A stretch of 32,808 nt of DNA from Halobacteriales archaeon QH_2_65_14 (GCA_003021285.1 PXQO01000083.1:1-32808), one strand, 5' to 3'; shown: positions 1,229 through 14,120, counted from the stretch's first letter. Notes: generated from the letters alone by a model not told the origin. A program made the numbers and translations.

Positions 1229-1339
1229 ATAGGTGGTTGTTGTGACTCTTTTGGGCCCTGCCCGGAATTATCCCTGTTTCGGCGGCTGAAACGGGAGAAG
1301 AGTGACTCCACGGCGGTACATAATCACAACAACCACTAT
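1229..1339 (-). repeat. Dispersed TIR element, copy A (111 bp)
   Basis: Left end ATAGGTGGTTGTTGTGACT, right end AATCACAACAACCACTAT (inverted repeats). On the minus strand reads ATAGTGGTTGTTGTGATTATGTACCGCCGTGGAGTCAC, matching copies B, C and D. Confidence 0.85.
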
Positions 1340-1464
1340 GAGGCGGGCGGGTCATTAGCCTAGCTGGAGACAGATTGCTGGTCACTAGCCCATCCGGAGC
1401 GGACGAGCGAATCGACAGCCCACCCGGGGGCGAGTGAGAAAGCCGATGGCACTCCGAAAACCGG

Positions 1465-3294
1465 TCAGTACGACCGCTCTTTCGGTTCGTAGGTCTCCTC
1501 GTGGCCTTCGAGAATGACGGGCTTGTAGTACAGTTCGGGCGACCCGCCGTTCCAGGCATAGAGGGTGTGTTTCAGCCAGTTCTCGTCGTCGCGTTCCTGG
1601 TACTGTTTGCGCCAGTGTGCGCCGCGGAACTCCTCGCGTGCGAGCGCGCCGACCGTAATCGCCTCCGCACAGTCGATGATGTTCCCGGTTTCGATGGTGT
1701 GAACGAGGTCAGTGTTGTAGGTCCGGGACGGGTCCCTGACGGCGACGTCCTGATAGAGCTTCCGGGCTTTGCGGATGTCCCTGAGAGCCTGCTTCAGTTT
1801 GCCCTCCTCGCGGAACACGTTCACGTTGTCCGTCATCGTTTCCTGGACCAGCGCCCGAACGTCGGCGTGGTTGATGCCGTCACGGTCGATAAGCGTCTCG
1901 ATGCGCTCGCGCTCGGCCTCGGCGGCGCGTTCGAGCACGTCCTGGGGCGTCGCGAGTGCACCGCCGTCGGTCGCGACGACGCCGGAGTCGTCTCCGACCT
2001 GCCCGAGGCCGACCGGCGAGTCGACGCCTCCCTCCTCGGACTTTGCCGACGGACCGGTCGGGACCTTCGCCTCCTCGTCGACAGCGCCCGCAGCGTGGCG
2101 GCCGGCCCGCGCCCCGAACACCATGAGTTCCGGCAGGGCGTTCCCCCCGAGGCGGTTCGCGCCGTGGAGGCTGTAACAGGCACACTCGCCGACGGCGTAC
2201 AGCCCGTCGATACAGCTCTCGCCGTGCTCGTCGACCTCGATGCCGCCCATCTGGTAGTGCTGGCCCGGCTTGACCGGCATCGGGTCGTCGAGGCCATCGA
2301 CGCCCTCGAAGTCCTCCGCGAGGTGGAGGATGTTCTCCAGCCTGTCGAGGATGCGCTCCTCGCCCAGGTGGCGCATGTCTAGGTGGACGTACTCGTCCTC
2401 GATTCCCCGACCCTCGTTGACCTCCGTCAGTTCGGCACGGGAGACGACGTCGCGCGAGGCGAGTTCGCCCTCGTTGTTCGCGTAGCCGTACTCGAACATG
2501 AACCGCTCCTCCTCGCTGTTGTAGAGGATACCGCCCTCGCCGCGCACGCCCTCGGAGATGAGCACGCCCGTCGAGGGCAGCGTCGTCGGGTGGAACTGGA
2601 CGAACTCCATGTCCTCCATGGGCGCGCCGGCCCGGAAGGCCATCGCCTGCCCGTCGCCGGTACACGAGATGGCGTTGGTCGTGTGGTCGAACACCTCGCC
2701 CAGGCCGCCCGTGGCGAGGATGACGCCCTCCGACGCGTAGAATCCCGAAATTTCGCCGGTCGCGATTTCGTACGCGACGACGCCGTGACACGTTCGCGAG
2801 CCGGGGTCGTCCTCGTCGGTGACAGCCAGCCTGGAGACGTACCACTCGTCGTACACCTCGATGCCGCGCTTGACCACCTGCTCGTACATCGTATGGAGGA
2901 GGTGGTGGCCGGTTTCGGCCCCGGCGTAGGTGGTCCGCGGGTGCGAGAGACCGCCGAAGGGCCGCTGTGAGACGGTGCCGTCTTCCTCGCGGGAGAACGG
3001 CATCCCCCAGTGTTCGAGCTGGATGACCTCCTCGGGGGCGGTCTTGGCGAACGCGTCAATCGCGGGAGCGTCCCCGAGGTAGTCCGACCCCTTCATGGTA
3101 TCGTAGGCGTGCAGGTCCCAGGAGTCCTCGGGGTGGAGCGCGGCGTTGATGCCGCCCTCTGCTGCGCCCGTGTGACTGCGCACGGGGTGGAGTTTCGTGA
3201 CGAGTGCCACGTCGGCACCGTTCTCGTGTGCCGCAATCGCTGCCCGGAGGCCGGCGCCGCCGGCACCGACCACGATGACGTCGTGTTCGTACAT
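1465..3294 (-). CDS. sdhA: Succinate dehydrogenase/fumarate reductase flavoprotein subunit
   Basis: MYEHDVIVVGAGGAGLRAAIAAHENGADVALVTKLHPVRSHTGAAEGGINAAL; active-site region and C-terminal domain present. ATG at 3294 preferred over the longer ORF start. Confidence 0.95.
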   Translation of the reverse strand: MYEHDVIVVGAGGAGLRAAIAAHENGADVALVTKLHPVRSHTGAAEGGINAALHPEDSWDLHAYDTMKGSDYLGDAPAIDAFAKTAPEEVIQLEHWGMPFSREEDGTVSQRPFGGLSHPRTTYAGAETGHHLLHTMYEQVVKRGIEVYDEWYVSRLAVTDEDDPGSRTCHGVVAYEIATGEISGFYASEGVILATGGLGEVFDHTTNAISCTGDGQAMAFRAGAPMEDMEFVQFHPTTLPSTGVLISEGVRGEGGILYNSEEERFMFEYGYANNEGELASRDVVSRAELTEVNEGRGIEDEYVHLDMRHLGEERILDRLENILHLAEDFEGVDGLDDPMPVKPGQHYQMGGIEVDEHGESCIDGLYAVGECACYSLHGANRLGGNALPELMVFGARAGRHAAGAVDEEAKVPTGPSAKSEEGGVDSPVGLGQVGDDSGVVATDGGALATPQDVLERAAEAERERIETLIDRDGINHADVRALVQETMTDNVNVFREEGKLKQALRDIRKARKLYQDVAVRDPSRTYNTDLVHTIETGNIIDCAEAITVGALAREEFRGAHWRKQYQERDDENWLKHTLYAWNGGSPELYYKPVILEGHEETYEPKERSY

Positions 3295-3630
3295 GGTTAA
3301 AGCGAGGGCGTCGATTCTCGTCGGGGCCACCCGCGTCACCGACTCCGGGCCACGCGGAAGAACCCGTCCATACCCGGTGTCAGGGAGCCCCGGAGAATAA
3401 ATGATTCGAAGCGCCCAGCCAGCGGTTGCCGTACAAACTACCACAGTATCCCCGCCAGGTGCCACTTCCGTCAGGCGGCCCCGTCCCGCCACTCCCGCCG
3501 GATAACACTGACTTATTCCGACCGGTCCCCGGGCCGTAGCCCGTTCCTACCGGAGCGAATCGAAACCAGCGAGAGAAGATATAACGGCCCTACACGGAAC
3601 CTTGATAATCGTTGATTAGAGTATATCGAG

Positions 3631-3987
3631 ATGATGTGTGAACTGGACCCGGTATTCACAGCGATGGCGAGCGAACGTCGTCGGACCGCGCTGTACTTCC
3701 TTCAGAAGCACCGCACAGTGTCGCTTCCCGACCTGGCCGAACTCGTCGCCGAACGCGAATACGGCAAGAATGTCTACGAACTCTCGGGCGACCGGGTTAA
3801 ACGCATCTACCTGGCGTTCTATCACGATCACATCCCCGTCCTAGAGAACGCCGACCTCGTCCGGTACGAACAGGAGAGCGACCTCGTGGTCAGAAGTGAG
3901 AATCTGCAGTCGAAAATCGAGAGTGCCCGCGAACAGCTTCAGATGCTCACGCTGCGCGAACCCGACGACAGCGGCTTACCGCACTGA
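3631..3987 (+). CDS. DUF7344-like haloarchaeal winged-helix (HTH) protein
   Basis: 118 aa; MASERRRTALYFLQKHRTVSLPDLAELVAERE...VKRIYLAFYHDHIPVLENADLVRYEQESDLV pattern. Upstream TATA-like agatataacgg near 3575. Confidence 0.75.
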   Translation: MMCELDPVFTAMASERRRTALYFLQKHRTVSLPDLAELVAEREYGKNVYELSGDRVKRIYLAFYHDHIPVLENADLVRYEQESDLVVRSENLQSKIESAREQLQMLTLREPDDSGLPH

Positions 3988-4048
3988 TCGCCACTGTACG
4001 CGTATTTTCGAATACCGCCGGCAACCGGGCCAGTCCGCGGAATTATCG

Positions 4049-5299
4049 TCAGTTGCGTCGGTCCTCGATTGCGACGCGACACATCCCGCCGAACCAGATG
4101 ACGAGGAGTGTCCCGACCAGGGCACGCGCCCAGCCGAGCGGGTCGTGGGGTCGCAGCCCGACTGGAACTCCCTCGTCGGCGTGGGGATACCGCGGTTGCA
4201 CCGGGGCAACCCCCTGCTGTTCGAGTTGTTGCCCGATCTCGACCGGGAGATACGTCTCGCTGGCATCGAGCGAGAGAAAGCCGTCACAGGCGTGGAAGAC
4301 GCCGTTGCCACAGGCCCGCTGTTCGGGGTCGTCGATGTCCGTCACGAGATTGTGAAGCAGTTCGTGCGCGACAGTGAACGCGCGGGTTTCGTGTGCTGGG
4401 TCCACGACCGCGACCGGGGACGTCGGTGCCGTCGCATGAGCGATGCCTTTCTTCGGGACCTCCATCCGGGTCACGACGACGAGGTGTCGCGTCGGACCCG
4501 AGTGATACCGGTCTCGGAAGAACGCCAGGTCGTGGTCCTCCCCGTCGTAGGCCGGGACGTCGCTCCCGACGCGTTCCTCGATGTGCAGCGTGATGCCCTC
4601 GCTTCCGTCGGGGTTTCCGACGGGCATCTCCGCAAACCACGTTTTCAGTCGTTTCTTCTCCCGCTCGCTCAGTTGCCGGGCGTCGTCGGCGTAGACGACA
4701 TCCAGGTAGATGTCCTTCCGGCCGGGGTCAGCGCCGGGAAGTGGGGTTCCGTCGGCCGTCCTCCCGCGGCGCTCCCAGTAGCTGTAGAGCCCGTCGTTTG
4801 ACCGGTCGTACAGGACGGGGATTTCCAGACGGTCGCGTTCGCCCGCGACGACGAGTTCGACGGTCATCGCCGGTTCGTGGTGGTCCTCGACCGCGAGTTC
4901 GACCCGGGAGCTGACCCCTCTCCCGGTCACGAGCGTCCGTTCGACCACGTCCCCGTCGACCAGGAGCCGGGCCGTTTCGCCGGGCTGGGGACACGTCTCC
5001 GGTTCGATCTCGTACTCGATTGTTACACTCTCGCCCGGGTGTATCCCCGACTTATCGCCGACTGCGAGTTCGACGTCGATGTCCCGTCCATTGCCTGACT
5101 TTCCCGGTGGCGTGTCAGCCGTTCCGGCCGGCGGCTGGTCGGTCAGTTCAGCCGCTCCGCAGTTGGGTGTCGGAGTCGAAAAGGGAGCGGAGATACCGTC
5201 AGCGAGGCCCGCTGGGCCGGCCGGGCCGGGCGGAACAGCGGCGACACCGGCGATGACGACAATTCCGGCCAGAGCGACCAGCGGGGCGAGACGGCGCAT
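4049..5299 (-). CDS. Secreted, membrane-anchored zincin-like (HExxH) metallopeptidase, uncharacterised
   Basis: 416 aa; N-terminal signal/TM (MRRLAPLVALAGIVVIAGVAAV), FTVAHELLHNLV (HELLH) motif, C-terminal TM WARALVGTLLVIWFGGMCRV. Confidence 0.7.
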   Translation of the reverse strand: MRRLAPLVALAGIVVIAGVAAVPPGPAGPAGLADGISAPFSTPTPNCGAAELTDQPPAGTADTPPGKSGNGRDIDVELAVGDKSGIHPGESVTIEYEIEPETCPQPGETARLLVDGDVVERTLVTGRGVSSRVELAVEDHHEPAMTVELVVAGERDRLEIPVLYDRSNDGLYSYWERRGRTADGTPLPGADPGRKDIYLDVVYADDARQLSEREKKRLKTWFAEMPVGNPDGSEGITLHIEERVGSDVPAYDGEDHDLAFFRDRYHSGPTRHLVVVTRMEVPKKGIAHATAPTSPVAVVDPAHETRAFTVAHELLHNLVTDIDDPEQRACGNGVFHACDGFLSLDASETYLPVEIGQQLEQQGVAPVQPRYPHADEGVPVGLRPHDPLGWARALVGTLLVIWFGGMCRVAIEDRRN

Positions 5300-5619
5300 T
5301 CTCTACTCCATATCGAATCACGGTCCGAGGGCGTAACAACAGCTTACTCGCGTCGAAAGCGTCGTACTCCTCCGACTCGTCGAGGTGCTGACAATCTGCG
5401 ACTACCCTGCTCGGGTTCGTCTGCGCCCCGGACCATACCCTGGGTAAGATTGTCGTTAACTTTAGCTGTTATTGCCGAGAATATACGTTTTCATTCAGGT
5501 GGTTACCGGGTACTTACGTACTGTCTATAGATTACTCACGCCACCGATGCCCACGTACTGTCTCCCTGACGCTGGCGGTTCCGATGACTCAGGATTGTCT
5601 TCCCGAAACGGAGGGACTC

Positions 5620-5712
5620 ATAGTTGTTGTTGTGATTAGTTACTGCCGTGGAGTCACAGATATCCCGTTTCAGGGGCCGAAAAGAGTCCTATCGGTCCGG
5701 CACCCGTGTCCT
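5620..5712 (+). repeat. Dispersed TIR element, copy B (one end intact, other end decayed)
   Basis: ATAGTTGTTGTTGTGATTAGTTACTGCCGTGGAGTCACAGATATCCCGTTTCAGGGGCCGAAA matches the minus strand of copy A. No recognisable AACAACCACTAT at the distal end; right boundary approximate. Confidence 0.75.
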
Positions 5713-5990
5713 CATTGCCGGCGGTGCGTCCGGTTCTCGGGACTGTACCGGTGACCGACGAACAGACACGTGGCGTGGCTCGCGAGCAACCCGAAAAACA
5801 CCTGGGTGTGTTCGACGACGAGGCCGCCGTACAGCATGGCGAGGATCGGGAACGGGAGGAGTATCGCGAACCAGAACGCTATCGCGTTGATGCCGGTGAC
5901 GGTCAAGTTTCGACAGGCCGATGCGACTGCCCCGACCTCCGGTGGGGTCTCGGGCGCGATTGCGCGTCCTTCGGCATTCGAGCTCGACAT
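5712..5990 (-). CDS. Small two-TM membrane protein of unknown function (92 aa)
   Basis: Two hydrophobic segments (INAIAFWFAILLPFPILAMLYGGLVV and VFFGLLASHATCLFVG). TATA-like sequence on the minus strand (cctttatagg) about 40-45 nt upstream of the start. Confidence 0.55.
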   Translation of the reverse strand: MSSSNAEGRAIAPETPPEVGAVASACRNLTVTGINAIAFWFAILLPFPILAMLYGGLVVEHTQVFFGLLASHATCLFVGHRYSPENRTHRRQ

Positions 5991-6302
5991 CCTTGCTCAC
6001 CTTACTACCCCCTTGACCCTCCACCCACCTATAAAGGTATGAGCGTTGACGTTAATTCAGGATATTTCGCATCTTTTGGCGTGAATTCACCCTCATAAAC
6101 AGTTTGAACGGCGTGAAAACTGCCGTAGAGGCCGGCTAAAACGGGAATACAGAGACGATCTAATAGCGGTCTCGTGGCTCGTTCCGGTCCTGCCTCGTCG
6201 CGTTGGCTGGTTCAGCGGCTGAAACCGAGATTCTCCCAGTGTGGGGAAATATATCGGAAAGGAATGAAACAACGCGCGGCCGCCCCAGCGGGTTTCGGCA
6301 CT

Positions 6303-7129
6303 TCACCAGAATTTGAGGTTGCTCTTGACGGCTTCGCGTTTGAGTTCCTGGATGTGTTCGGTCAGGGGGATGTCCTTGGGGCAGACCTCCGTACAGGAGA
6401 ACTGCGTCTGACAGCGCCAGACGCCGTGTTCCTGCTCGACAATTCTGAGCCGTTCCTCCTTGCGGTTCTCGCCCTCCCGTTCGTCCATCGCGAACCGGTA
6501 GGCCTTGTTGATGGCCGCGGGGCCGAGGTACTTGTTGTCGCTGGCCGCGATGTTGCACGAGGACATGCACGCGCCACACCAGATACATCGCGTCGAGAGC
6601 TTGATTTTCTCGCGGTTCTCGGGGCGCTGTTTCTGTTCGTCGAGTTCGCCGTCGGGGAGTTCGTCGGGGTCGAAAAACGGCCCGACCGCGTGCATCTGGT
6701 CGTAGAAGTGCTCCATGTCCACGACGAGGTCCTTCACGACGTCTTGCAGGCGAGGCGCTGACTCCCGTTGATGAACAGCGCGTCCGACCCACAGACGGCC
6801 TGCCGACAGGAGTGGCGAAAGGTCAGCGACGAATCGTAGGTATCCCGCGCGTAGATGAGCGCATCGAGGACGGTCATCCCCTCGTGGAACGGGACGGTAA
6901 ACGAGTCGAACCGGGGTTCTTCCTTGTCGGCGACTTCGGGGTCGTACCTGAAGACCTTGAGTTCGACCGTCTCCTCGGCTTCCCCGACCGCTTTTTCGAT
7001 CTCGCGCTGGCGCTGCTCCTGGCGCTGTCGTTTCCGCTCGCGCCGGCGCTCGCCCGGCGAAACCTCCTCTTTCGTTTCCTCTGTCTCTTCCGTTTCCGTC
7101 TCGGCCGTTTCTTCGATCTGTGTGCTCAT
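6303..7129 (-). pseudogene. sdhB: Succinate dehydrogenase iron-sulfur subunit, disrupted by an internal out-of-frame deletion
   Basis: Frame 1: MSTQIEE...CRQAVCGSDALFINGSQRLACKTS* (stop at 6734). Frame 2 continues DVVKDLVVDMEHFYDQM...CIWCGACMSSCN...QFSCTEVCPKDIPLTEHIQELKREAVK. The segment between CKT and xVVKDLVVDM present in SdhB homologs is absent. Confidence 0.85.
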
Positions 7130-7132
7130 AGT

Positions 7133-7498
7133 TCAGAACAGTCCACTCATTTCGATTGCGACGTACGTTCCCTGGACGATCAGCAGGATGCCCGAAAGCC
7201 CCAGGACGACTGCGACGATTTTCTTCTGTGTCCCTTCGAGACCCTGGTTGATGAGGGCGTTGTAGACGCCGTTGACGCCGTGGAACGTCGCGGTCACGAG
7301 GAACAGCCACATCAGCGAGAAGTAGCCGATCTCGCCCATCCGGGCCTCCGTGCCGGCGAAGGTAATCTCGGCGGCGTGGTTGACGAAGTGCAACATAACG
7401 AAGTGGAACGCCAGCACGCCGATGAGAAACACCGCAGTGACGCGCTGGAGGACCCACCGCCAGCTCCCGCGCTGGAACGATGAGTAGTGCTCCGCCAT
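7133..7498 (-). CDS. sdhD: Succinate dehydrogenase membrane anchor subunit
   Basis: 121 aa; WRWVLQRVTAVFLIGVLAFHFVMLHFVNH...ATFHGVNGVYNALINQGL; ATGA overlap with sdhC. Confidence 0.88.
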   Translation of the reverse strand: MAEHYSSFQRGSWRWVLQRVTAVFLIGVLAFHFVMLHFVNHAAEITFAGTEARMGEIGYFSLMWLFLVTATFHGVNGVYNALINQGLEGTQKKIVAVVLGLSGILLIVQGTYVAIEMSGLF

Positions 7499-7890
7499 CA
7501 GAGGACACCCCCGAGGAACGTCGGAATGCTGGCCAGCGCGATCAGCGCCGTCAGCACCAGCGACGCGTAGAAGCTCTTGTCCTGGCTCTCCAGCCCGATG
7601 CCCAGGTCGACCATCAACAGCCTGATCCCGTTCAGGATGTGGAACACGGCGACCGTCAGCAGTCCGATTTCGAGAAAGCGGACGATCAGCAGCGCTTCGA
7701 GCCCCTGCAGGGTGTCAGTGTACATCTCCGGCGACTGGGTTGCGGTACTCAACACGGCGATGTGCGTGAACAGGTAGCCGATGAGTATCCAGCCCGTGAA
7801 CTTGTGGAGTATCCAGGCCCACATGCCGGCGGAAAACTCCTTCCAGCGACCGAAATCCTCCACGACACCCCGGTCGTAGCTCTGACTCAT
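7498..7890 (-). CDS. sdhC: Succinate dehydrogenase cytochrome b subunit
   Basis: 130 aa; [27 protein letters not shown]...[16 protein letters not shown]. Confidence 0.9.
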
Positions 7891-7938
7891 ATGTGTGGAG
7901 CGTAGGATTCCCTCCCAATAGAAGTTTCTACACCGGAG

Positions 7939-7951
7939 CGTATATATTAAT
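7939..7951 (-). promoter_or_regulatory. TATA-like promoter element of the sdh operon
   Basis: Minus strand taatatatacgct about 50-60 nt upstream of the sdhC start, directly abutting repeat copy C. Confidence 0.5.
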
Positions 7952-8060
7952 AGTGGTTATTGTGACTCTTTACCGCCGTGCTGTCATAGTCCAGGTGTGT
8001 GAGACGGCGAAATGGGGGTGCACGTGTCCTGGTCACGAAAACAATCACAATAACCACTAT
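7950..8060 (+). repeat. Dispersed TIR element, copy C (111 bp)
   Basis: ATAGTGGTTATTGTGACTCTTTACCGCCGTG ... AACAATCACAATAACCACTAT; terminal inverted repeats near-perfect over 17-18 bp; same length as copy A, opposite orientation. Confidence 0.88.
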
Positions 8061-8094
8061 CAGTTGAAAACTTCGGGATGTGCGCGCCCCGCCG

Positions 8095-8529
8095 TCAGTC
8101 GTCCGTCGTTCGGGCGTAGAGACACCGGGCGTCCATCCACAGCACCACCTCGCCGTCCCCGTTGATCGTCTCGATCTCCTGTTTGACCATGCCGCGGTCC
8201 TCGTCCCACACCTCCTTCTCGCCGAGGGTGAGGCGTACCGAGAGCGTATCGCCGGGTGTGACTGGTCTGCGCCACTCCAGACCGTCCAGTCCGGGCGACC
8301 CCAGGGTCTCCGCGTCGACGAGATACCCATCGACGAGCATCCGCATCGTCATCGCTGCGGTGTGCCATCCGCTCGCGATGACCGTCTCGTAAGGCGCGTG
8401 GTGGTCGTCACCGAGGTGGAACGACTGCGGGTCGTACTGCTCGGCGAACTCGATGATCTCCTCTCGCGTCACCTCGTAGGAACCAAACTCCAGCGTCTCG
8501 CCGGGCGTCACTTCCTCGAACGTGTGCAT
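8095..8529 (-). CDS. MaoC-like (hotdog) dehydratase domain protein
   Basis: MHTFEEVTPGETLEFGSYEVTREEIIEFAEQYDPQSFHLG...VIASGWHTAAMTMRMLVDGYL...WRRPVTPGDTLSVRLTLGE. The 555-aa ORF track entry wrongly fuses it to btuF. Confidence 0.88.
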   Translation of the reverse strand: MHTFEEVTPGETLEFGSYEVTREEIIEFAEQYDPQSFHLGDDHHAPYETVIASGWHTAAMTMRMLVDGYLVDAETLGSPGLDGLEWRRPVTPGDTLSVRLTLGEKEVWDEDRGMVKQEIETINGDGEVVLWMDARCLYARTTDD

Positions 8530-8608
8530 ACGCGCTACTCGGAAGGGCAACACCAAGTACGCACCGTCCTGGCACTGCATGGACCCGCGGGTCACTCGTC
8601 GGGCACCG

Positions 8609-9735
8609 TCAGCGGGACCGCCGGGAGCGCGCCAGAAGTGCGACTGCCAGGAGCGCGGCCACGGCTCCGCCGACTGCAAAGCCTGCACCGTCGTCGTCCG
8701 CGTCCCCGTCAGTATCGTCGGCCGGCGTCGGCGTCGGCGTGGGCGACTCCTCGGGCGTCGGCGTCGGCGAGTCGTCCGGGGTGGGCGTCGGCGTCGGTGT
8801 GGGCGTCGGTGTAGGCGGGTTGCGTCCAGCGAGGCCATCGCCCCGGGGTGGAACGCCTCGGCCATCCGCTCCAGTGGGATGATGACCCGTGGCCCGTGCT
8901 GGCTGATGTAGTTGGGGTTGACCTCGATGATCTGGTCCTCCTCGACCGCGGTCGATTCCTGGAGTGCAGTCACGTCCGGAACCTCCGAGCCCTCGCTGAT
9001 GACGATCCACTCGGGGTCGTTGGCGGCGATGACTTCCTCGCTTATCTCGAAGTACCCGCCGTCCTCGGCTTCCAGCGCGATGTTCTCGCCGCCGGCCTTG
9101 GTGATCAGCTGGTTTTCGAGCGTCCCTTCGCCGGCGGTGAACGGGAACCCGAGGTCGTAGTACACGCGGGGCGGGTCCTCGCTCTCGACGGCGTTCTCGA
9201 TCTCCTCGATGGTCTCCCGGGTCTCGGTGATCGTCTCGCTTGCCCCCTCGCACGCGCCGACCATCTGGCCGACCCGGTCGAGTTCGTCGTATATGTCCTC
9301 GACCGAAACCAGCAGCGGCGAGCGGTAGACTGTCAGTCCCGCGTCACGGAGGCTCTGGACAGTTTCCTCGGTGATGATGTTGGGTGCGAGCACCAGGTCC
9401 GGTTCCAGCGCGACGACCTCCTCCTGGACCGGCTGACCGAACTCGTCGACGACGTGCTCGCGCTCCTCGCTGCCCTCCAGATAGGCGGTGAACTGATTGA
9501 CGGGCATCCCCGTCACCTTCTCGGACGCGCCGATCTCCCACATGTGCTGGGCGGCGCTCGGCCCGAGGACGACGACCTCCTCGGGTTCCTGCTCGACGGT
9601 GACCGTCTCGCCGGTCGCGTCCTCGATCTCGACCGGGAACTCACAACTACTCCCGAGGACCGGTCCCGTGACCAGCACGGCGAGGACCAGTCCTGCAACC
9701 AGCGCGACGAGCGCTACCGATCTTCGTTGTCTCAT
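8609..9735 (-). pseudogene. btuF: Cobamide/B12 ABC transporter substrate-binding protein with apparent frameshift before its PT-rich C-terminal anchor
   Basis: Frame 1 encodes signal peptide and PBP domain through MAEAFHPGAM; the other frame encodes NPPTPTPTPTPTPTPDDSPTPTPEESPTPTPTPADDTDGDADDDGAGFAVGGAVAALLAVALLARSRRSR*. The switch lies in about 8822-8860. Confidence 0.8.
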
Positions 9736-9794
9736 ACTCCTGGCTGGGGGCTTATGCAACAAATATTTACCTAAAGCAATTCGATTTTGAATCG

Positions 9795-10844
9795 ATGCGG
9801 ACCGTAGCGCGGGTAGGTCTCTGGTCGGGCGGCTTGCTTGCCGTGCTGTGTGGGGCAGTCCTCGCCAGCGCGGCGGTCGGTCCGGTTCGGATCGACCTGC
9901 CGACGGTCGCGAGAGCGACGCTCAACACGGTTGCAGTCCCGACAGAGGTCTCGTTCGGAGTGGGAGGCCCGTCAGTCGCAGGGGTCGGGGTACCACTACC
10001 GTCGATCAACGTCGGTTACACGCAGGTGTTCGCGTTTGCGGTTCCGGAGACCGAACAGACCATCGTCGGGAAAATCCGCCTGCCGCGTATCGTCCTGGGG
10101 GCAATCGTCGGGTTCGCGCTCTCGACGGCGGGCGCGGTCATGCAGGGCTTTTTCCGGAATCCGATGGCGGACCCCTCGATCATCGGCGTCTCGTCGGGCG
10201 CTGCCGTCGGTGCGGTCGCCGTCATCGCCTTCTCGCTGGCGGTACCGCTCCAGGCGGCCGCGTTCGTCACGGGCCTCGTGACCGCGTTCGTCGTCTACCT
10301 CATCGCGACGGAGAACGGACGGACGCCGGTTGCGACGCTCCTGCTGGCCGGCATCGCGGTCCAGACGTTCCTCGGGGCCGTCATCTCGTACATGCTGTTG
10401 CAGTCGGGCGAGAGCCTCGAAGAGGTCGTGCTGTGGCTGATGGGTCACCTGCACAACAGCCAGTGGGGCGAGGTCGAGGTGACGCTCCCGCTGGCGCTGG
10501 TCACGTTCGGGGTCCTGCTCGCGTACGCCCGTGACCTGAACGTCCTGTTGCTCGGGGAGGAGGACGCCCACGCGCTCGGCATCGAGGTCGAACGCACCAA
10601 GCGCATCCTGCTCGCCGGGTCTGCGATAATCACGGCCGCGGGCGTCGCGGTGGCCGGCGTCATCGCGTTCGTCGGCCTCGTCGTCCCCCACGTGATGCGG
10701 CTCGTCGTCGGACCCGACCACCGGATTGCGGACACGGCCGCCCGCGCCGGCCCGGCCGAGGTTCCGGTCGGCATCGTCACCGCCGCGGTCGGTGCGCCCT
10801 TCTTCCTGTTTCTGCTCCGCCGCCAGGAGGTGCACGCGCTGTGA
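9795..10844 (+). CDS. btuC: Cobamide/B12 ABC transporter permease (apparently lacking an internal C-terminal-region segment)
   Basis: FecCD family: LPRIVLGAIVGFALSTAGAVMQGFFRNPMADPSIIGVSSGAAVGAV...GVIAFVGLVVPHVMRLVVGPDHRI...PAEVPVGIVTAAVGAPFFLFLLRR. Confidence 0.9.
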   Translation: MRTVARVGLWSGGLLAVLCGAVLASAAVGPVRIDLPTVARATLNTVAVPTEVSFGVGGPSVAGVGVPLPSINVGYTQVFAFAVPETEQTIVGKIRLPRIVLGAIVGFALSTAGAVMQGFFRNPMADPSIIGVSSGAAVGAVAVIAFSLAVPLQAAAFVTGLVTAFVVYLIATENGRTPVATLLLAGIAVQTFLGAVISYMLLQSGESLEEVVLWLMGHLHNSQWGEVEVTLPLALVTFGVLLAYARDLNVLLLGEEDAHALGIEVERTKRILLAGSAIITAAGVAVAGVIAFVGLVVPHVMRLVVGPDHRIADTAARAGPAEVPVGIVTAAVGAPFFLFLLRRQEVHAL

Positions 10845-12022
10845 TCCGTCTCGACGGCGTCGGCCTGTCTTTCGGTGACGTGCCGGTCCTTGACGGCGTC
10901 GACCTGCGGGTCGAACCCGGCGAGTTCGTCGGCCTGGTCGGCCCCAACGGGGCAGGCAAGACGACCCTGCTCCGGACGATAAACGGCGCGCTCGACCCCG
11001 ACCGCGGCGAAGTCCGGCTCGACGACAGCCGCGTGGGCGACCTGGGTGCGAGAGCGGTCAGCCGACGGGTCGCGACCGTCCCGCAGGATACCCACGTGGG
11101 CTTTTCCTTCCGGGCGGAGCAGATCGTCGAGATGGGGCGGACGCCGCACCGCTCGCGGTGGAACTGGGGGGACGACCACGATCCCGTCGAGACCGCCCTC
11201 GAACGGACGGAGACGACCCACCTGCGCGACCGTCGGGTCGACGACCTGAGTGGCGGGGAACGCCAGCGCATCCTCCTGGCGCGCGCGCTGGCACAGGAAC
11301 CATCGGCCCTGTTGCTCGACGAACCCACGGCCAGTCTTGACGTCAATCACCAGGTGAGCGTGCTCGGCCTGGTCGCTGATCTCGTCGACGACGGCCGGGC
11401 CGCGCTGGCAGCCATCCACGACCTCGACCTCGCGGCCCGGTTCTGTGATCGACTCACGCTCCTCCACGAGGGACAGATACGTGTGCGGGGTCATCCCGAG
11501 CGGGTCCTGAACGACAGTTCCCTCTCGGCCGCCTTCGATACCGATGCCGCCGTGACGACGAACCCGGTTACGGGCACGCCGACCGTCGCAGCACTCGACG
11601 GCCGTCCCGACCGCGACTGTCGGGTGCACGTTGCGGGTAGCGGCGAGGGTGCAGCGGCGGCCCTGCGGACGCTCTGGCGGGCCGGTTTCGAGGTCACCGT
11701 CGGCCCTGCGCCCGAGGGCGACGTCGTCAGCGTCCTCGCCGAACAGCTCGACGTCGAGGCAGTCACCGCACCCGCGTTCCGGTCCCCCGACGAGTCGTTA
11801 CGGGTAGCGGCCCGCGACCTCGCCAGGGCGGCGGACGTCCTCGTCGTGACAGGCGGTCCCGGGAGCGACGCCGTCGGTGGGGACAGCGCGTCTGCTCCCC
11901 GCATCGACGCGACGCTCGCCAACCCTGCGACGGCCGCGGCCCGCGTCGACGGGGGCGAGCGGGACGCCGTCGAGGACGAGGCCGAACTCGTTGACGCCGT
12001 GCTCGCAGAGGTCCAACAGTGA
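10841..12022 (+). CDS. btuD: Cobamide/B12 ABC transporter ATP-binding protein with haloarchaeal C-terminal extension
   Basis: Walker A GPNGAGKTT, signature LSGGERQR, Walker B ALLLDEPTASLD; start overlaps btuC stop. Confidence 0.9.
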   Translation: MIRLDGVGLSFGDVPVLDGVDLRVEPGEFVGLVGPNGAGKTTLLRTINGALDPDRGEVRLDDSRVGDLGARAVSRRVATVPQDTHVGFSFRAEQIVEMGRTPHRSRWNWGDDHDPVETALERTETTHLRDRRVDDLSGGERQRILLARALAQEPSALLLDEPTASLDVNHQVSVLGLVADLVDDGRAALAAIHDLDLAARFCDRLTLLHEGQIRVRGHPERVLNDSSLSAAFDTDAAVTTNPVTGTPTVAALDGRPDRDCRVHVAGSGEGAAAALRTLWRAGFEVTVGPAPEGDVVSVLAEQLDVEAVTAPAFRSPDESLRVAARDLARAADVLVVTGGPGSDAVGGDSASAPRIDATLANPATAAARVDGGERDAVEDEAELVDAVLAEVQQ

Positions 12023-12084
12023 GCCGGTTTTCGGACACTGGGAAGAAGCGCGGCATCTAAGTACCTTCCACCAAACTCTTCGAT

Positions 12085-13466
12085 ATGTTCCCCACTGGGT
12101 CCAGCGGCCGGCTCCCGCACCCGGGTCCGACGGGGTGGCTCGCAGCCGCAGCCCTCGGCGTCTACGTGCTGGTCGTCGTCGGTGCGACTGCGTCCCTCTC
12201 CGACGCAGCACAGGCCTGCTCGTCCTGGCCGGCCTGTTCGGGCGGGACCGACGACCCCGCCGTGCTCGCATCCTCCGGACCGGGACGACGCGGCGGGTCA
12301 AACTTGCAACGGTGCTGGCACTCACACTCTACCCCGTACAGATGGCCGTCGGCGCGCTCCTCGCGACGACAGCGGGCGCGGCCCTCTTCCCCGGCGTTCA
12401 CCTTCTGATCGGCGTGAGTATCTTCGGGACGCTACTGCTCTCGCTCGCGTGGCATCTCGAACACGTGACCGGGAGCGATGACGAACCGCTCTCGCCCGGG
12501 CATCCCGGGCCAGCGGGGGCCAGTTCCGAGTCCCCCGAGAGCGACGAACCGGAGACGCCGGCCCCGACTGCCGTGTCGGGCGAGGCCGGGGGCGTCGGCC
12601 TCCGGACCCGTGCATTCGCGTACTTCCGCCTGATGAAACCTCGGCTGATGTGGTTGCTCTGTCTGGTCGCGGCCGCCGCGATGGCGCTCGCAGCAGCCAG
12701 CGGGTGGACGCTCACCGTCGACACCATCGTTCTCACGCTCGGTGGTGGCGTCCTCGCTATCGGTGCGAGCGGGACGTTCAATCACGTCCTCGAACGCGAC
12801 CGCGACCGGAAGATGTCACGCACCAGCGACCGTCCGGTCGCGACACATCAGGTCTCCGGGCGCAACGCCCTCGCCTTCGGCTTCGCGCTCACGGGGCTCT
12901 CTGTCCTGGTGTTCCTGCAGACGAACGTGCTCGCGGCCGCGCTCGGGTTCGTGGCCATCCTGTTTTACAGCGTCATCTACACGCTGGTCCTCAAACCCAA
13001 CACCGTCCAGAACACCGTCATCGGGGGTGTGGCCGGTTCCCTGCCGGCGCTCATCGGCTGGGCCGCCGTGACGGGCCGGATCGACGTGGCGGCACTCCTG
13101 CTGTCGGGGTTCATCTTCGTCTGGACGCCCGCACACTTCTACAACCTCGCGCTGGCCTACAAGGAGGATTACGCCCGGGGTGGCTTCCCGATGATGCCCG
13201 TCGTCAGGGGGGAGACGACGACTCGAAAGCACATTCTCCTGTGGCTCGGAGCGACGCTCGCGTTCGGAACCGCCCTCATCTGGGCGACGGGGCTGGGCTG
13301 GCTCACCGCCGCCACGACGGTCGTCGCCGGGGCCGTGTTCCTCCGGGCTGTCGTCCGACTGCACCACGAACAGTCCGAGGAGGCGGCCTTCCGGGCGTTC
13401 CACGCGTCGAATGCCTACCTCGGTCTGTTTCTCGTCGCCATCGTCGTCGACGCGATGGCCATATAG
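12085..13466 (+). pseudogene. ctaB: Protoheme IX farnesyltransferase with N-terminal CtaA-like region, interrupted by an internal frameshifting deletion
   Basis: Frame 1: MFPTGSSGRLPHPGPTGWLAAAALGVYVLVVVGATASLSDAAQACSSWPACSG. Other frame: RILRTGTTRRVKLATVLALTLYPVQMAVGALL...FRLMKPRLMWLL...FNHVLERDRDRKMSRTSDRPV... UbiA domain through 13466. Confidence 0.82.
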
Positions 13467-13468
13467 TC

Positions 13469-13575
13469 ATAGGTGGTTGCGATTATTCTCAGCCTCTCCC
13501 GGAAAATTGGAAGCAAAGGACCCAACCGTAGCGGTCCGTGACCGCCCGGCGGTACCGAGTCACAACAACTGCTAT
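13469..13575 (-). repeat. Dispersed TIR element, copy D (107 bp)
   Basis: ATAGGTGGTTGCGATTATTC ... CGGCGGTACCGAGTCACAACAACTGCTAT; same orientation as copy A; its end reaches the stop codon of the rhodanese gene. Confidence 0.8.
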
Positions 13576-14120
13576 CAGTTCACCTCGGTCCCTTCGAGTG
13601 GGTATCCGCGGTCGACCCACTCCCGGATTCCCTCTTTGAGTGCGTACACGTCGGTGTAGCCGTTCTCGATGAGCGACGCTGCACGGTTGGTCGAGAGCGT
13701 GTGCGGACAGGGACAGTAGGTGACGATCCGGGTATCCTCTGTGAGGGCATCGAGCGGATCGTCCTCCGGCAGTCCGTCCGGGGCGGGGCTGAACACCGCT
13801 CCAGCGATCCGGACCTCCTCGTCGTCGATAGGAGCGAGGGGAACCTCGGTTCCCCCGACGGCGTACATGTCGTACCCGTTCCGGTCCGTTTTCCCCGTCT
13901 CCTCGCCCGGCGTATTCTCCACGTCATCGGGGTACTCGTCCGGTTCCTCGACGTCTACCTCGGAGTCGGTCGCCTCCTCCCCGTCGCCGTTGCCGTTGCT
14001 GTCACCAGTATTTTCACCATCGCCGTCGCTGTCACCGTTGCCGTCACGGTCACCCAGACAGCCTGCCATTCCCACGATGCCCAGCATCCCGACCGCGCCG
14101 ATGAATCGCCGTCGTTGCAT
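13575..14120 (-). CDS. Tat-type lipoprotein with rhodanese domain (apparently missing the VDAR segment)
   Basis: MQRRRFIGAVGMLGIVGMAGC Tat/lipobox; GRDGNGDSDGDG linker; VRIAGAVFSPAPDGLPEDDPL...RIVTYCPCPHTLSTNRAASLIENGYTDVYALKEGIREWVDRGYPLEG. Confidence 0.82.
   Translation of the reverse strand: MQRRRFIGAVGMLGIVGMAGCLGDRDGNGDSDGDGENTGDSNGNGDGEEATDSEVDVEEPDEYPDDVENTPGEETGKTDRNGYDMYAVGGTEVPLAPIDDEEVRIAGAVFSPAPDGLPEDDPLDALTEDTRIVTYCPCPHTLSTNRAASLIENGYTDVYALKEGIREWVDRGYPLEGTEVN

Follow-up and report, generated by a model that had tools for sequence, protein, structure and literature searches.

An order-wide class of short haloarchaeal mini-transposons with 3-bp TSA target duplications

Related repeats and the four copies in the window

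The pneumococcal RUP (107 bp) and the Neisseria Correia/NEMIS elements are short, non-coding repeats with terminal inverted repeats (TIRs) and a fixed short target duplication, and they are mostly intergenic; RUP and Correia elements duplicate TA, and RUP has an IS630 partner. The family described here is alike in class and near-equal in length, a likeness drawn by description only, but duplicates TSA. Duplications of 3 bp with the form TNA are made by the ISL2 and IS1031 groups of the IS5 family and by PIF/Harbinger elements. This trait is shared with the present family, although an IS5-type transposase matching its ends was not found in the genomes and loci searched. REPINs are palindromic, have a fixed length of about 100 bp, and lack a linked carrier, in which they resemble our elements; to our knowledge, however, target duplications and exact TIRs of this kind are absent from REPINs, whereas the present family has both.

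Within the haloarchaea, the SMR-A repeats of Haloquadratum walsbyi comprise HqIRS42, HqIRS43, and HqIRS55 (PMC3119063). In 2011, the mobilisation of SMRs was called enigmatic, target duplication was reported to be absent, and SMR insertion into the near-terminal palindromes of IS605/PATE elements was described (PMC3119063). Like SMR-A, the elements studied here measure about 110 bp, have prominent TIRs, occur in many copies, and lack coding capacity.

The window, i.e., the whole stretch of 32,808 nucleotides that was analysed, corresponds to contig C83 in the draft genome of a member of the Halobacteriales (G000; 1.96 Mb, 64% complete), referred to below as the source genome. Four copies of a dispersed element had been pointed out in it, and we saw again both ends of A (1229-1339), C (7950-8060), and D (13469-13575) and the single end of B (from 5620). 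Coordinates of the copies listed here are those of the cores without target duplication, and bit scores refer to the family model R1.

1230 to 1338, minus strand: copy A, 109-bp core whose left TIR has one inserted base; the duplication has decayed, with CCA/TGA as flanks; 84.7 bits
5621 to about 5688, plus strand: copy B, a remnant with a single end, belonging to the 81-bp size class; its right TIR of about 13 bp is missing, and the left flank is TCA; intact 81-bp form in L045; 22.7 bits
7951 to 8059, plus strand: copy C, from a second subfamily (TIR TAGTGGTTATTGTGA), core of 109 bp; flanks TAA/TCA; 92.3 bits
8000 to 8002, plus strand: empty TGA target site, located midway along copy C
13467 to 13469, no strand assigned: left TCA target duplication of copy D
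13470 to 13574, minus strand: copy D, 105-bp core, 3-bp duplication intact; 44.8 bits
13575 to 13577, no strand assigned: right TCA target duplication of copy D, on the minus strand the TGA stop of a rhodanese-domain gene (13575-14120)

The best further match to R1 in the window had an E-value of 0.38, and only copy D has an exact duplication pair (TCA/TCA). At the contig edge, 195 bp to the left of copy A, the plus strand carries an IS110-family transposase gene (36-1034; PF01548 and PF02371), of which no second copy was present in the stretches of the source genome examined.

Element ends, target duplication, and insertion sites

The true ends of the element are TAGTGGTTGTTGTGA...TCACAACAACCACTA, spanning 108-109 bp. 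Oriented copies run from TAGTGGTTGTTGTGA through the left box TTACCGCCG and an interior of variable sequence to a GAAAATA-like right box and TCACAACAACCACTA. The general layout is a 15-bp TIR of the class TASnGn6GTGA with a left subterminal box cTctTTACCGCC, then the variable interior, and finally the right box GAAAATAnTCAC with the second TIR behind it. The terminal repeats and the two subterminal boxes are conserved, and the internal hairpin is not. The original prediction had placed the start of the TIR one base early, at an A that belongs to the duplication. Its view that the repeats are more than chance is borne out by the scan of the source genome, where at least 40 A-type copies were found (89-100% identity among the matches listed), together with 193 TIR ends at up to two mismatches as against none for the reversed pattern. 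Among 54 short pairs of ends in about 632 kb of this genome, 33 measure 108 bp and seven 109 bp, and one 81-bp and five 48-bp forms are also included. The 48-bp forms, which consist of TIR, 18 bp, and TIR, were seen at L027 and L050 of the source genome and at L324 and L326 of G186, a genome from a different haloarchaeal family whose 48-bp form has another TIR; with TSA or near-TSA flanks in both families, they are among the shortest mobile elements seen.

Consistent target-site duplications, which the original prediction could not find, do exist. When the element is taken to start at TAG, 39 copies of the source genome have TCA/TCA or TGA/TGA flanks and seven have the mixed pair TCA/TGA; mixed or decayed duplications make up about 15% of its copies. 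The duplication had been missed because its A and T lengthen the apparent repeat: since the TA at the element ends abuts TSA, a repeat extended outward reads ATAG...CTAT and the duplication is lost. Exact duplications were found in 47 of 56 copies from sister genomes, and all 12 copies of H. walsbyi, which were located by a model blind to flanks, have exact TSA pairs. Lengths of 1-2 or 4-9 bp were ruled out, and exact duplications of 4 bp or more were never seen. According to 93 distinct sites, the duplication is 3 bp long and reads TSA (TCA or TGA) within a weakly palindromic 9-bp target, GWC-TSA-GWC.

Copy C is uninterrupted at its target and reads ...GTGTGTGAGACGG..., while in six other C-type copies of the source genome (L227:2803, L227:9402, L246:12210, L223:8865, L230:9062, and L238:7896) an A-type element sits exactly at this TGA position. 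The nested sites read TGA-element-TGA or, on the other strand, TCA-element-TCA, with one right-hand copy mutated to TGG, and at least two of these insertions were independent since both relative orientations occur. Empty-site orthologs had been proposed as a check; here, the nested copies supply clean empty sites, and one empty target is copy C itself. Genome G044 has composites of 206-218 bp and one of 319 bp that enclose one or two additional mini-elements; most of these composites lie between TSA pairs themselves.

With respect to genes, 26 insertion sites lie on a TGA stop, 44 are intergenic, and three are coding, whereas 69% of random TSA sites are coding in 1.31 Mb with the elements removed; genes were called with a home-made, simple codon-usage gene finder, which called 76% coding and probably missed some genes. 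About a third of the copies thus sit exactly on TGA stops, which are restored by the duplication (26 of 69 insertions, as against an expectation of 8% unweighted and 15% target-weighted), among them copy D in the window on the stop of the rhodanese gene. The frames that end at a duplication are deemed real genes because Pfam domains lie within them, namely in nine of the first 10 frames and in 19 of 30, often finishing within 5-25 residues of the stop; the genes with an element on the stop include those for a hydantoinase, methionine synthase, a histidine kinase, a HalX regulator, and an archaeal histone (G268). The excess over expectation, and the presence of upstream frames open for at least 100 codons at 54% of sites compared with 15-20% of controls (p 6e-9), could be taken to mean that the elements actively seek gene stop codons. 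We regard this as very unlikely, since the target-weighted rate per site is 0.019 at stops and 0.015-0.018 at 1-80 nt downstream (p = 0.34), and on this local control, active targeting was rejected despite the p value of 6e-9; moreover, GAC-TGA matches the target preference, and the duplication renders the insertion harmless. With the same rate at downstream sites, the pattern is explained by tolerance plus target preference. The TSA duplication allows an element to land on a TGA stop and leave the protein unchanged, and such harmless landing may aid high copy number in gene-dense genomes.

Spread across haloarchaea and probable relation to SMR-A

Three sister genomes of the genus contain 179-304 TIR ends each, with interiors about 71% identical to those of the source genome. 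A strict pattern (TCA, TASnGn6GTGA ends with 64-88 bp between them, TCA) matches nine of 394 genomes of the order, and its reversed control is zero for every genome listed. Of 295 haloarchaeal genomes, 66 are matched by a family model based on 21 diverse members, and these belong to 32 of 88 genera; the weaker of the 66 matches rest on rough E-values, and most matches are 107-109 or 79-81 bp in size. Related families with other TIRs (TACTGGTGGCTGTA, TACTGCCGGACGTGA, TACGGTCGTGCGTGA, TACTGTCGG...) have the TNA duplication and a similar length in common, and hybrid-TIR copies were found among them; length and boxes are conserved across at least five families. No elements were found in viral contigs, phages, and plasmids, where exact TIR 15-mers gave only scattered single matches in viral contigs, and the H. 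walsbyi plasmid PL47 (L378, NC_008213) contains no TIR element of 76-125 bp. The larger plasmid PL100 has been reported free of SMRs (PMC3119063).

Haloquadratum walsbyi C23 (G202) is among the 66 matching genomes; its element, the TAGTGATTAGTGCGA element, has the same 108-bp architecture, and the C23 members of the family probably correspond to the SMR-A repeats. They are relatively frequent and have prominent TIRs and 108-bp cores, or 110 bp if ATAG...CTAT is counted. The TIRs of SMR-A were reported as unrelated to known transposons; no related transposon was found within the data examined here. Whereas SMR-A was described without target duplication, here it is 3 bp long and exact in 12/12 H. 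walsbyi copies. The published lack of duplication may stem from where the repeat ends were drawn, since counting the A and T of the duplication into the repeat gives 110 bp and no duplication. The original prediction had called the family undescribed-looking, and this must be qualified: the published C23 genome already contains this class, although identity with SMR-A is only probable. As for insertion into hairpins, the signal in H. walsbyi is weak (10 sites, p 0.014), and in other genera no hairpin excess was seen at 33 CTSAG-type sites (p 0.57).

The elements form a genuine class of mini-transposons that extends across the order and bears clear signs of past mobility; they represent a clarified form of the MITE/SMR kind, now defined by their ends, their 3-bp duplication, a 9-bp palindromic target, and a spread over at least 32 genera. 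With these features defined, the enzyme can be searched for by co-occurrence, and the system can be tested in cultured, transformable haloarchaea.

Mode of transposition, carrier search, and companion elements

The four copies are best read as a family of non-autonomous DNA transposons of the MITE/SMR type, moved by a trans-acting transposase that cuts TSA sites, a reading to which we assign a probability of about 0.88. They are short and non-coding, occur in many dispersed copies, and have terminal inverted repeats and a target-site duplication of fixed length. Past mobility follows from the ends, the duplication, the target, the empty sites, the nesting, and the order-wide spread. The transposase would act in trans and make a cut staggered by 3 bp at a TSA site (GWC-TSA-GWC being preferred), the repair of which would leave TCA or TGA on either side. 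The chemistry is predicted to be cut-and-paste by a DDE-type enzyme, to which the subterminal boxes may serve as binding sites. Insertions last almost solely outside coding sequence, with TGA stops among the tolerated sites since the duplication rebuilds the codon.

The original prediction had left the choice between a MITE and an RNA-forming unit. The former is favoured by the many copies and their TIRs, by the exact 3-bp duplications, and by the empty sites and the nesting. That selection instead acts on the hairpin, and that the units are a structured non-coding RNA or an RNA-processing element, might be suggested by the GTTTC...GAAAC hairpin of copy A and its relatives and by single-strand folding that beats shuffles (z -5.2). 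We hold this to be extremely improbable, since a covarying helix is absent outside the TIRs. In the 21-member alignment, 49 cells of the TIR stem changed on both sides as against 16.6 in shuffles, and one-sided G-U cells are very few, whereas the central stem is paired in 72% of cells with both-sided change at only two of five pairs, RNAalifold retains only the TIR stem, and an Rfam search of the window gave no match. Such both-sided change with scarce G-U fits identical protein-binding ends and is as would be expected if one protein must read both. Because the TIRs co-vary with almost no G-U, the internal hairpin lacks covariation support, and RNAalifold keeps the TIR stem alone, the DNA reading is preferred.

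The earlier statement that no carrier transposase could be found still stands after a wider search, which covered parts of each genome and used the profiles of two transposase families; this is in keeping with the 2011 description of SMR mobilisation as enigmatic. TIR-agnostic scans, which asked only for TIRs starting with TA and for exact TNA duplications, detected no carrier of 0.4-4.5 kb in 1.54 Mb, mainly from G000, G106, and G044, and none in 0.8 Mb of H. walsbyi; altogether, about 2.3 Mb of element-bearing genomes was free of a carrier, 0.4 Mb of it from G044, which is 99% complete. The TIR/duplication signature was absent from 37 PF01609 (DDE_Tnp_1) loci, at which the script used did recover ordinary IS elements with 8-bp duplications as a positive control, and the PF01609 transposases of G106, G108, G109, G137, G186, G044, and G099 were accordingly dismissed as carriers; the PF01609 search of the source genome gave none, and PF13586 (DDE_Tnp_1_2) is absent from five element-bearing genomes. 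Two long pairs of ends were also rejected: 5621-8059 in the window joins an end of copy B to an end of copy C, and a transposase was not found in the interval, while a 3.3-kb pair on contig C67 encloses ordinary genes and a run of N.

Three observations weigh against the preferred reading. An autonomous element with these TIRs was not found in the sequence scanned, which leaves the trans-acting transposase putative; about 15% of the copies in the source genome have mixed or decayed duplications; and the near-constant length across diverged families is more uniform than random deletion derivatives of a parent transposon would be expected to give. A narrower form of the same explanation holds that these SMR-like elements have a dedicated, unlinked mobilising enzyme, much as RAYTs mobilise REPINs, and that a TIR-bearing carrier never existed. 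The scans and transposase loci just described point in this direction, as does the constancy of length across diverged families; against it, the scans took in parts of each genome with profile tests of only two transposase families, and MITEs commonly lose their carriers. We therefore regard this form as possible but tentative, and somewhat more doubtful still is an order-wide superfamily of length-locked mini-transposons (108, 80, and 48 bp) whose dedicated enzyme is not encoded by a TIR-bearing carrier. If the length-locked reading were true, length and boxes would be selected because the enzyme acts on the two ends of a single short DNA simultaneously.

Companion elements were also observed. 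In the 6-Mb genome G044 (L308-L347), a second TSA-flanked mini-element family (TACTGTCGG...) is often nested in the 108-bp family; its ends gave 93 matches in forward and 180 in reverse orientation. A further family of about 108 bp with GACAGCCAGACGTGA... ends is inserted at the centre of copies of the TACTGGTGGCTGTA family, with an apparent TA duplication (L260:9248-9465 and L090:69-287).
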